From NCBI GenBank assembly GCA_022827905.1, contig JAJEIQ010000028.1:1-33278 (forward strand): 33,278 bases of DNA, given 5' to 3'. This document shows, in pieces, positions 13,935-19,691 of the stretch (its first letter is position 1; each line of letters opens with the position of its first letter). The position numbers were made by a program, and so were the translations under genes. This stretch comes from Pseudomonadales bacterium. Lineage in GTDB: Bacteria > Pseudomonadota > Gammaproteobacteria > Pseudomonadales > Azotimanducaceae. Below the pieces are notes generated by a model, which worked only from the letters and a program-made list of their open reading frames with translations, was not told the DNA's origin and searched no databases.

Positions 13935-16811
13935 ATGGAAAACAGAATTACCGAATCCACCAGGGACCCGCTTGTTCAACCACCGCCGAGCGTTGCCGCC
14001 ACCGCTCCGGGCCTGCTCAAGGTCATCAAGCGCACCGGCGAGGTCGTGTCCTACAACGACGACAAGATCGCCATTGCCATGACCAAGGCGTTCCTCGCCG
14101 TTGAAGGCGGCAGTGGCGCCGCATCGCCGCGCATCCGCGAACTGGTCGCCGTGCTGACGGCCCAGGTCAGCGGCATATTCCAGCGCCGTTTCCCCTCCGG
14201 GGCCACGCTGCACATCGAGGACATTCAGGATCAGGTTGAACTGGCGCTGATGCGCTCCGGGGAGCATCAGGTGGCGCGCTCATACATCATCTACCGCGAG
14301 GCGCGGGCGCAGCAGCGCAGCGAGCGCCAAGGCGCAAGCGGGGATGGGCAGCGGCGCGACATCGAGGTGATCTGGCCGGACGGCCACCGGGCGCCGTTGG
14401 ACATCGGTCGCATTCACACGTTGACCACCGAGGCCTGCGCCGGCCTTCTGGACGTGGACGCCAATCGCATCATCGAGGAAAGCCTGCCCAACCTCTATGA
14501 CGGCATCAGCGCCGATGGCGTGGCCACCGCATTGGTGATGACCGCGCGCACCCTGGTCGAGGAGGAGCCCAACTACTCCTATGTCACCGCCCGCCTGCTG
14601 CTCGACCAGTTGCGCGCCGAGGCCTTGGGCTTTCTTGAGGTTCAGGCTCAAGGTGCCGGAACCGGCGACTACTCGGCCACCCAGTCGCAAATGGCCGAGG
14701 CCTACCCGCGCGCCTTCCGGCGCTTCATCGAACGCGGCGTCGAACTGGACCTGCTGACCCCGGAACTGCTGGGCTTCGATCTTGATGCCTTGGGTGCGGC
14801 CCTGCAGCCGGAGCGGGACCTGCAGTTCACCTACCTCGGCCTGCAGACCCTCTACGACCGCTACTTCCTGCACAGCGGCGACGTGCGCTTCGAGTTGCCC
14901 CAGGCTTTCTTCATGCGGGTGGCCATGGGGCTGGCCGTGCAGGAGAGCGACCGGAACAAGCGGGCGGTCGAGTTCTACAACCTGTTGTCGAGCTTCGACT
15001 ACATGAGCTCAACGCCCACCCTGTTCAATTCCGGCACCCTGCGCTCCCAGCTCTCGTCCTGCTTCCTGACCAGCGTGCCGGACGACTTGGACGGCATCTA
15101 CAGCGCCATTCGCGACAACGCCCTGCTCTCCAAATGGGCCGGCGGCCTCGGCAACGACTGGACGCCGGTGCGGGCGCTCGGCTCCTACATCAAGGGCACC
15201 AACGGCAAATCCCAGGGCGTGGTGCCCTTCCTCAAGGTGGTCAACGACACCGCCGTGGCCGTCAACCAGGGCGGCAAGCGCAAGGGCGCGGTCTGCTCCT
15301 ACCTCGAGACCTGGCATCTGGACATCGAGGAGTTCCTGGAGCTGCGCAAGAACACCGGCGACGATCGGCGCCGCACCCACGACATGAACACCGCCAACTG
15401 GATACCGGACCTGTTCATGAAACGGGTGACCGACGACGGCGACTGGACGTTGTTTTCGCCCAACGAAGTCTCCGATCTGCACGATCTCTACGGCAAGGCC
15501 TTCGAGATGCGTTACGAGGCCTACGAAGAGCAGACCCGCACCGGCGAGCTGACCCTCTTCAAGACCCTCAAGGCCCGCGACCTCTGGCGCAAGATGCTCT
15601 CCATGCTGTTTGAGACCGGCCATCCGTGGATGACGTTCAAGGACAGCTGCAATCTGCGCTCACCCCAGCAGCATGTGGGCGTGGTGCATTCCTCGAACCT
15701 CTGCACGGAGATCACGCTGAACACCGGCGCCGAGGAAATCGCCGTTTGCAACCTCGGCAGCGTCAATCTGGCGCAGCACGTCATCGACGGCGAGCTCGAT
15801 TTGAAGAAGCTCAAGAAGACCGTTCGCACCGCGGTGCGCATGCTCGACAACGTCATCGACATCAACTACTACTCGGTGCCGCAGGCGCGCGCCTCGAACA
15901 TGCGCCACCGGCCGGTCGGCTTGGGCATCATGGGTTTTCAGGACGCGCTCTACAAACTGCGCCTGCCGTACGGCTCCGATGCGGCGGTCGAATTCGCCGA
16001 CCGGTCCATGGAGGCGGTCAGCTATTTCGCCATCGAGGCCTCATCGAAGCTGGCCGGCAAGCGGGGCGCTTACGCCAGCTTCTCCGGCTCCCTGTGGAGC
16101 CGGGGCATCCTGCCCATCGATTCCCTGAAGCTGTTGCGCAACGAGCGGGGCAAGGCCTATCTGGAAGCGGACCTGGGCTCTTCGATGGACTGGGATGCCC
16201 TGCGCGGCCAGGTGCAGATCAACGGCATGCGCAACTCCAACGTGCTGGCCATCGCGCCCACGGCCACCATCGCCAACATCACCGGCGTCTCCCAATCCAT
16301 CGAGCCGACCTATCAGAACCTGCATGTGAAGTCGAATCTCTCCGGCGAGTTCACGGTGGTCAACCCCTACATGGTGCGTGACCTCAAGCGGCTCGGCCTC
16401 TGGGACAACGTGATGGTCGCTGATCTGAAGTACTACGACGGTTCGCTCCGGGCGATGGACCGCATACCCGAGGATTTGAAGGCCCTGTACGCCACCGCCT
16501 TTGAGGTGGAGCCACGCTGGCTGGTCGATGCCGCCAGCCGCCGCCAGAAGTGGATCGATCAATCCCAGTCCCTGAACCTCTACATCGCCGAGGCCTCCGG
16601 CAAGAAGCTGGACGTGACCTATCGCATGGCGTGGCTGCGGGGGCTGAAGACCACCTACTACCTGCGCACCCTGAGTGCCACGGGCACCGAGAAGTCCACC
16701 CTTGCCCAAGGCACGATGAACGCGGTCGCACCGACCTCCGCACCGAGCACCGAGGTGGAAGCGGGGGCGGCCTGCTCGATTGACGACCCGGATTGCGAGG
16801 CCTGCCAGTAG
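13935..16811 (+). CDS. nrdA: Ribonucleoside-diphosphate reductase, alpha subunit (class Ia)
   Basis: The 958-residue catalytic subunit reduces NDPs to dNDPs in the cytosol with NrdB. The N-terminus carries an ATP-cone (LKVIKRTGEVVSYNDDKI, from about residue 30) and a second, weaker ATP-cone-like segment follows (about 140-240), as in Pseudomonas NrdA of similar size. Active-site elements are visible: SQLSSCFL (redox cysteine), NLCTEITLNT (thiyl-radical cysteine and glutamate), TTYYLRT (paired radical-transfer tyrosines) and the C-terminal CEAC dithiol. The ATG at 13935 gives the expected family length; AGAAAG is a modest ribosome site. nrdB follows after 51 bp. Probably repressed by NrdR through the upstream boxes. 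Confidence 0.96.
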   Translation: MENRITESTRDPLVQPPPSVAATAPGLLKVIKRTGEVVSYNDDKIAIAMTKAFLAVEGGSGAASPRIRELVAVLTAQVSGIFQRRFPSGATLHIEDIQDQVELALMRSGEHQVARSYIIYREARAQQRSERQGASGDGQRRDIEVIWPDGHRAPLDIGRIHTLTTEACAGLLDVDANRIIEESLPNLYDGISADGVATALVMTARTLVEEEPNYSYVTARLLLDQLRAEALGFLEVQAQGAGTGDYSATQSQMAEAYPRAFRRFIERGVELDLLTPELLGFDLDALGAALQPERDLQFTYLGLQTLYDRYFLHSGDVRFELPQAFFMRVAMGLAVQESDRNKRAVEFYNLLSSFDYMSSTPTLFNSGTLRSQLSSCFLTSVPDDLDGIYSAIRDNALLSKWAGGLGNDWTPVRALGSYIKGTNGKSQGVVPFLKVVNDTAVAVNQGGKRKGAVCSYLETWHLDIEEFLELRKNTGDDRRRTHDMNTANWIPDLFMKRVTDDGDWTLFSPNEVSDLHDLYGKAFEMRYEAYEEQTRTGELTLFKTLKARDLWRKMLSMLFETGHPWMTFKDSCNLRSPQQHVGVVHSSNLCTEITLNTGAEEIAVCNLGSVNLAQHVIDGELDLKKLKKTVRTAVRMLDNVIDINYYSVPQARASNMRHRPVGLGIMGFQDALYKLRLPYGSDAAVEFADRSMEAVSYFAIEASSKLAGKRGAYASFSGSLWSRGILPIDSLKLLRNERGKAYLEADLGSSMDWDALRGQVQINGMRNSNVLAIAPTATIANITGVSQSIEPTYQNLHVKSNLSGEFTVVNPYMVRDLKRLGLWDNVMVADLKYYDGSLRAMDRIPEDLKALYATAFEVEPRWLVDAASRRQKWIDQSQSLNLYIAEASGKKLDVTYRMAWLRGLKTTYYLRTLSATGTEKSTLAQGTMNAVAPTSAPSTEVEAGAACSIDDPDCEACQ

Positions 16812-16862
16812 CCGCCGCCGAGGCGGGTGCATCGCGCGACACAAGGAGATAGGAGATACCGC

Positions 16863-19080: not shown

Positions 19081-19691
19081 TGCAAATCAAAGCAAGGTAC
19101 TCGCACCTGAATGGTGAGGAGTACCTGCTCGTTCATCACAAGGCCCTATGGGAGGAGGTCCAAGCCGTGATCGCTGATGTCGATGCGGCGGCCTGCAGAA
19201 CCAAAGTGTCGCAGGAACGGACCATGCCGGGGAAAATGCTGTTTTCTCCGGGCGATATGAACAGAGCTTTCAAGTCCGGGCTTGAGTCCTTGGGGTGGTC
19301 GGAACGGCGCAATTCCTTTTGGGTCACGGCGGATGAAAAGCTTCTTCGCGGAATATCGGGACTGCCACCTAAGGAGCAGAAGCGGGCGATTGAAGCCGCA
19401 GGGCACGAACCCATAGGTTCATACAACCAGACCGACTTTGTGAAGGATCGTATCGCCGTCGAAGTTCAGTTCGGAAAATACGCCTTCGTAGCGCATGATC
19501 TCTTCGTGAAGCACTTGAGCTTCTACGTTTCCGACATCATCGACGTGGGCATCGAGATTCTTCCCATGAAGGAACTGGAAAAGGAAATGTCTTCAGGCGT
19601 TCCCTACTTTGAGCGCGATTTGTTGAATCTGATTCGCCAAGGTCGCGGCGTACCGGCGGTTCCCTTGGTATTGATCGGCATCGCACCGTGA
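19080..19691 (+). CDS. Type II restriction endonuclease, BglII/BstYI family
   Basis: The 203-residue protein fits the BglII/BstYI family in length and motifs. The active site reads D119-x8-E128-x-Q130 (within DFVKDRIAVEVQFG), where Gln replaces the usual Lys of PD-(D/E)xK nucleases; BglII has the same spacing (D84, E93, Q95). KYAFVAHDLFVKHLSFYV, DVGIEILPMKEL and QGRGVPAVPLVLIGIAP complete the family pattern. Predicted target is RGATCY or a subset such as AGATCT; this is inference. The start ATG (19080) overlaps the methyltransferase TGA (19078-19080), so translation is coupled; a TTG at 19077 is possible. The gene looks more AT-rich than its neighbours, a sign of acquisition. Confidence 0.92.
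   Translation: MQIKARYSHLNGEEYLLVHHKALWEEVQAVIADVDAAACRTKVSQERTMPGKMLFSPGDMNRAFKSGLESLGWSERRNSFWVTADEKLLRGISGLPPKEQKRAIEAAGHEPIGSYNQTDFVKDRIAVEVQFGKYAFVAHDLFVKHLSFYVSDIIDVGIEILPMKELEKEMSSGVPYFERDLLNLIRQGRGVPAVPLVLIGIAP

Follow-up and report, generated by a model that had tools for sequence, protein, structure and literature searches.

How a newly acquired restriction-modification (R-M) system comes to be expressed safely and on time is an old question, and its usual answer is a C protein or an internal promoter. We met it again in a stretch of 33,278 nucleotides (nt) from a Pseudomonadales bacterium of the Azotimanducaceae (contig JAJEIQ010000028.1 of assembly GCA_022827905.1; the whole stretch is called the window here), in which a predicted type II pair, a DNA methyltransferase and a BstYI-like endonuclease, lies directly behind nrdA and nrdB, the genes of a class I ribonucleotide reductase. 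What brought the pair there, what transcribes it, and is its position more than an accident? Taken as a whole, the explanation that we favor and hold to be probable is a single insertion behind nrdB, expressed by read-through, in a wider pattern in which R-M systems have reached ribonucleotide reductase loci several times independently.

An R-M pair directly behind nrdB

The genes concerned and the junction between them are:

13935..16811, + strand: nrdA, class I ribonucleotide reductase large subunit, 958 aa, with ATP cones (PF02867, 2.8e-194; PF03477; PF00317; NCBIfam PRK07207)
16863..18164, + strand: nrdB, class I ribonucleotide reductase small subunit, 433 aa (PF00268, 3.7e-90; NCBIfam PRK07209)
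18165..18174, + strand: nrdB/methyltransferase junction, 10 nt, of equal length in 5 of 5 carriers
18175..19080, + strand: beta-class DNA methyltransferase, 301 aa (PF01555, 1.7e-48; top solved relative RsrI methylase, 4.1e-30; dN/dS 0.08-0.16)
19080..19691, + strand: BstYI-like type II endonuclease, 203 aa (PF09195, 7e-34; BstYI 1sdo, 3.4e-87; dN/dS 0.02-0.06)

A check of the coordinates bears out an earlier note on this DNA, which had found the four genes to share a strand and to be spaced by 51, 10 and -1 bp. An in-frame GTG at 16827 offers an alternative start for nrdB, and the ATG of the endonuclease gene at 19080 shares one nucleotide with the methyltransferase stop codon (TGATG). The note had also set the ribosome site of the methyltransferase over the nrdB stop. 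This holds in the window (TGAAGG), whereas in four other genomes with the same junction the likely site, CGGAAG, lies just 3' of the stop.

The endonuclease is a full-length member of the BglII/BstYI family. It aligns without a gap to solved BstYI over residues 2-203 (202 of 203 residues), and its D119, E128 and Q130 are identical in BstYI, where they occupy the positions of D..ExQ, which we take to be the BglII-type catalytic residue set. The methyltransferase is closest to RsrI among solved proteins and carries an SPPY motif that would presumably suit an N4-cytosine enzyme. It adjoins the endonuclease gene in the window, a similar methyltransferase stands beside the endonuclease in the best 80 of 475 BstYI-like loci, and the two window proteins are probably cognate. 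The pair resembles the BstYI type II system in the full-length similarity of its endonuclease and in the methyltransferase next door. It differs in sitting behind nrdB with a 10-nt spacer, and in that its specificity (RGATCY, by analogy with BstYI) and its restriction activity are predictions. Among the carriers in the genus, the low dN/dS of the endonuclease (0.02-0.06) and the methyltransferase (0.08-0.16; nrdB, 0-0.09) indicates that purifying selection maintains both proteins.

A probable single insertion that kept the nrdB stop

In five of nine genomes of the genus (the window, G002, G004, G007 and G008; these handles are our own), the spacer from the nrdB stop to the start of the methyltransferase gene is exactly 10 nt long. 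The endonuclease is present in four of the five carriers (the window, G002, G004 and G008). In G007 (L131 6759-7664), an intact methyltransferase gene has no endonuclease gene after it and is probably an orphan left by endonuclease loss. G001, G003, G005 and G006 are without the pair and have other genes behind nrdB. Homology between carriers and non-carriers ends 0-2 nt past the nrdB stop (G001, G006) or within 4 nt of it (G003); against G005, it weakens before the end of nrdB is reached. This comparison of relatives with and without the insert, which the earlier note had proposed, shows that the nrdB stop was preserved at the insertion.

The genus carriers form one clade in both the methyltransferase and the endonuclease tree, and the closest rows outside the family come from Chloroflexota, Acidobacteriota and others. 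Judging from these trees, the pair probably arrived from outside and was then inherited within the genus; it would have entered once, right after the nrdB stop, in an ancestor shared by some members of the genus. The window itself rests on a single draft contig, which might raise the suspicion of chance adjacency or an assembly artefact. The identical junction in four other, independent assemblies refutes this, parallel cases (described below) occur in G562, G411 (decayed) and G1155, each of them a genome in a single contig, and we regard such an accident as extremely improbable.

Read-through as the likeliest source of the transcript

The earlier note had argued that the junction leaves no room for a standard promoter or a C-protein box, and we find that neither a promoter nor a C-protein gene would fit: just 10 nt separate nrdB from the methyltransferase gene, and no C gene or operator was found ahead of the pair. 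A scan of 7 kb for sigma-70 promoters gave two matches against 1.6 expected, none of them in nrdB or the gap; the one + strand match falls within the methyltransferase gene. Within the same 7 kb, no terminator-like site stands between nrdB and the R-M pair. The note had named a strong promoter in the 3' part of nrdB as one finding that would undo its reading. We rejected such a hidden promoter because the region has no consensus match and no dip in synonymous divergence: among the carriers, 55 of 311 compared sites in the last 38 nrdB codons differ (0.18), compared with 0.10-0.13 elsewhere in nrdB. The 10-nt gap, the lack of promoter and terminator matches and the lack of synonymous conservation make read-through the likeliest source of the transcript, and the methyltransferase and endonuclease genes are likely co-transcribed with nrdAB. 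As to control of the operon itself, no NrdR box was matched in the window at up to three mismatches to the consensus, in a scan that a diverged box could escape; NrdR control of nrdAB was rejected for want of a box in the window.

These observations suggest a simple mechanism. The inserted pair would have lost its own promoter, or never had one at this place, and would be expressed from the nrdAB promoter by read-through, and translation of the endonuclease would be coupled to that of the methyltransferase ahead of it. From an essential operon, active each time DNA is synthesized, a promoterless pair would receive steady expression, with the methyltransferase leading, and addiction would afterward make the insert hard to lose. 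If a position in or behind an operon that supplies deoxynucleoside triphosphates (dNTPs) is recurrent, this would be a different solution to the problem of safe expression, in which the replication-linked transcription of the host sets the dose of the R-M system.

Recurrence within the family

Such a position is indeed recurrent. We found nrdB in 129 of 206 genomes of the family and read its neighborhood in 121 of the 129, some of which end at contig edges. PF09195 endonucleases gave 28 matches in 25 of the 206 genomes, and 11 of the 28, in three genera, lie at most 3 kb behind nrdB (among them a match below the curated cut-off in G571 and a decayed one in G411). In G562, nrdB is followed after 19 nt by a BglII-type endonuclease (R), an MT-A70 methyltransferase (M), a BstYI-like M and a BstYI-like R, in this order. 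G557, G560 and G573 hold an MT-A70 M and a BglII-type R behind nrdB, and G571 and G411 hold broken R-M remnants at nrdB. PF01555-type methyltransferase genes lie between nrdA and nrdB in G411, G577 and G575 (the Pfam scan covered that of G411).

Pairs of close relatives show how clean these insertions are. G562 and G345 are 96.8% identical until 11 nt past the nrdB stop, and identity resumes at +2879 in the former and +13 in the latter, delimiting an insertion of ~2.87 kb that carries two R-M systems. Between G557 and G558, identity breaks off with the nrdB stop and returns immediately ahead of the start codon that follows, again a clean insertion. Such natural, near-identical genomes with and without the insert make a clear test possible. 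Random placement would give a probability of ~1e-9 for 4 of 18 events in the family, a rough count that follows our own grouping and excludes the genus of the window because it prompted the search.

Recurrence in other bacteria

Draws of genomes from the class and the phylum held PF09195 endonucleases in 16 of 369 and 10 of 398 genomes, respectively, one in each being the window's own. In the phylum draw, an MT-A70 methyltransferase gene comes immediately after nrdB in G1155 and G1146; by NrdB, which is 89% identical to that of Qipengyuania citrea, their family is sphingomonad-like. A relative of this methyltransferase occurs in 18 of 144 genomes of that family and is at least 60% identical in 13 of the 18. 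Eight of these 13 sit at nrdA/nrdB, including G1155, which had prompted the choice of the family; among the other five, one is at a contig edge and four have no reductase gene in a flank of ~1.5 kb. In G1310 and G1293, nrdA and nrdB are separated by M and R; the M, R, nrdA and nrdB genes of G1293 each align as fragments, which makes sequence errors likely in that genome. At the nrd locus of G1377, M is present and no R was seen. Outside both families, none of 12 cellular relatives is linked to a reductase gene within short flanks.

The MT-A70 and BglII-type pairs at nrd loci (G562, G557, G560, G573 and the sphingomonad-like family) resemble the window pair in being type II systems at the same kind of locus, with an endonuclease of the same or a similar family. 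They differ from it in the class of their methyltransferase, several have a leader of their own, and some have a convergent endonuclease gene. In a methyltransferase tree of 62 rows, the nrd-linked state requires eight changes, at least three of them forced by well-supported branches; the tree leaves out rows with stops, short rows, rows below 50% identity and two duplicates, and scores G004 as linked for a second R-M pair ~4 kb upstream of nrdA. Another gammaproteobacterial locus, L098, joins a BstYI-like pair to a class II reductase, as we read its split TSCPD arrangement: a reductase gene (PF02867) and a TSCPD gene are followed by M, overlapping by 8 nt, and then R. The class I NrdB proteins of the two linked subfamilies are ~26% identical.

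The linkage goes beyond one odd genome, recurring in the genus, its family, the sphingomonad-like family and L098. The arrangement is not an accident, since it recurs at the same kind of locus in unrelated bacteria, and the evidence supports a landing site that has been used repeatedly and often gives read-through expression. We recognized no description of R-M genes in a reductase operon in the literature searched, in agreement with the note's statement that it knew of no type II system tied to dNTP synthesis; Furuta and colleagues (2010), who surveyed the contexts of R-M genes, may have recorded related cases.

Observations that weigh against purposeful wiring or the favored explanation

The spacing and orientation of the genes count against purposeful wiring of restriction to dNTP synthesis. 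Among 14 junctions with a readable methyltransferase start (endonuclease start in G562), six are tight: 10 nt in the genus, 19 in G562, 10 in G1293, 4 in G1377, the 8-nt overlap in L098, and G1310, where an in-frame ATG or GTG start lies inside the end of nrdA. The other eight leave at least 52 nt before the methyltransferase gene, room for a promoter: 52-125 nt in G1383, G1155, G1304, G1386 and G1292, ~160-180 nt in G1146, ~90-140 nt in G557/G560 (counted once), and ~250 nt or more in G573. By eye, the G1383 gap contains a terminator-like hairpin, and G1155, G1304 and G1146 each have their endonuclease gene in reverse orientation.

Against the explanation that we favor, linkage is rare among the relatives of the window pair. 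Fifteen other gammaproteobacteria of the class draw hold a PF09195 endonuclease, and none has a reductase gene in the short flanks; nrdB was found in eight of them, two of which have it on the contig of the endonuclease, at distances of 112 kb and 1.3 Mb, and six on other contigs. Outside the genus, L098 is the one reductase-linked case among 77 BstYI-like loci from the best 80 of 475. At these 77 loci, by a rough, purpose-made caller of open reading frames, the upstream gene is on the same strand in 50 (within 60 nt in 13) and on the opposite strand in 21, with a contig edge in five and no gene called in one. The approximately unbiased (AU) test fails to reject a single BstYI-like origin for the genus and G562 (p 0.57, 0.39 and 0.18). 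By tblastn, no reductase gene appeared in the examined stretches of six viral contigs with BstYI-like genes or of 27 with MT-A70-like genes (0 of 27), and a phage origin of the linkage was rejected on this ground.

Finally, RGATCY is not clearly depleted in 293 kb of the genome, so restriction activity stays a prediction. Its observed/expected ratio is 0.87 under a maximal-order model, compared with 0.81-1.03 for 14 other R..Y palindromes, with AGATCT (0.64) and GGATCT (0.72) alone low; an order-1 model gives 0.62, against 0.33-1.74 for other palindromes. Site avoidance was accordingly rejected as proof of activity.

Mobile cassettes and receptive loci

How might such pairs reach reductase loci? 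In OX638326.1, an alphaproteobacterial metagenome-assembled genome, four copies identical over 2746 bp (L058, L064, L066 and L067, each 4068-6813) consist of an IS1595-type transposase gene (PF12762) followed by BstYI-like M and R genes between inverted ends. BstYI-like endonucleases also occur on five plasmid records (one a partial match) and, in four records, on the Burkholderia phages BcepIL02 and DC1; in BcepIL02 a methyltransferase gene adjoins and terminase genes are near. In the window, the best match to IS1595-type ends has 7 mismatches in 20, no convincing target repeats were found, and the genes called beside the pair, nrdB and one of 132 aa, include no transposase gene. We rejected an IS1595-borne transposon there. 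Homing endonuclease genes and introns sit in nrdA and nrdB of T4-like phages, where nuclease genes are likewise lodged in or between reductase genes; here, by contrast, R-M pairs with their own methyltransferase lie in bacterial genomes, in the spaces between genes and not within the genes. Insertion sequences that move R-M systems have been described (PMC3031569); such systems are mobile R-M cassettes like the OX638326.1 copies, differing from the window locus, where neither transposase gene nor transposon ends were found.

The nrd locus itself would accept inserts between intact genes. By our reading of the sequences, HigBA-like (G003), HipBA-like (G562, with a HipB-like frame in G345), VapBC-like (G430) and transposase-like (G571) genes occur at these loci, and an IrrE-like peptidase gene (PF06114) lies between nrdA and nrdB in G577 and G573. 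With modules other than R-M present as well, it may be that the locus just takes in small addiction modules. Extending this thought, the 3' end of nrdB could be a plain insertion hot spot for any small mobile module, with R-M systems that keep weak promoters missed by consensus scans. The mix of modules just listed would fit, as would the mobility of the IS1595-borne cassettes, the intein-like inserts in nrdA of three genomes and the first non-R-M gene behind nrdB, which mostly differs across the nine genus genomes. A hot spot alone does not explain the class II operon of L098 or the 10-nt junctions held in five species, and the window shows no transposon ends or convincing target repeats; we consider it a serious possibility, if not the probable one.

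At the other extreme, co-regulation could be the function itself, the linkage being kept since methylation capacity must rise with DNA synthesis. Convergence on class II and on two distant subfamilies of class I reductases speaks for selected wiring of this kind, together with the two pairs between nrdA and nrdB (G1310, and G1293 with its broken frames) and the six tight junctions. The eight loose junctions, one with its hairpin, the opposite-strand endonuclease genes of the three sphingomonad-like cases and the non-R-M modules that share the loci make it unlikely. Purposeful coupling of restriction to dNTP synthesis is possible and unproven. Of the earlier note's proposal that the R-M pair is wired to dNTP synthesis, the structural side has stood (no promoter room or match, the nrdB stop kept, the linkage recurrent), while the loose junctions and the other modules speak against co-expression as the reason for it.

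Returning to insertion with read-through, we would extend it, with considerable doubt, to a broader proposal: reductase operons may be a favored home of type II R-M systems in several Pseudomonadota lineages, reached independently and in different reductase classes, where read-through would tie the supply of methyltransferase to DNA synthesis and anchor the system to an essential operon.

Further inserts and R-M genes near reductase loci

Some of the loci hold additional features. On a Qipengyuania citrea plasmid (L366, NZ_CP098495.1), Ku, DNA ligase D and other genes separate nrdA from nrdB, another sign that reductase loci accept inserts. The VapBC-like pair of G430 (L259 6212-6933) is encoded on the opposite strand, with nrdA and nrdB to either side. 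An insert of ~1 kb near residue 430-445 of nrdA is present in G411 (L133), G575 (L255) and G577 (L256); in G411 it reads as intein-like, in frame, starting with C and ending with HN. At the place where G004 has its second R-M pair, G007 (L291 7176-7967) contains the BglII-type endonuclease frame, with no intact methyltransferase frame listed behind it. The second R-M pair of G004 (L290 6981-8260), a BglII-type R and an MT-A70 M, lies between genes that, from their sequences, we read as enoyl-CoA hydratase-like and CinA-like.

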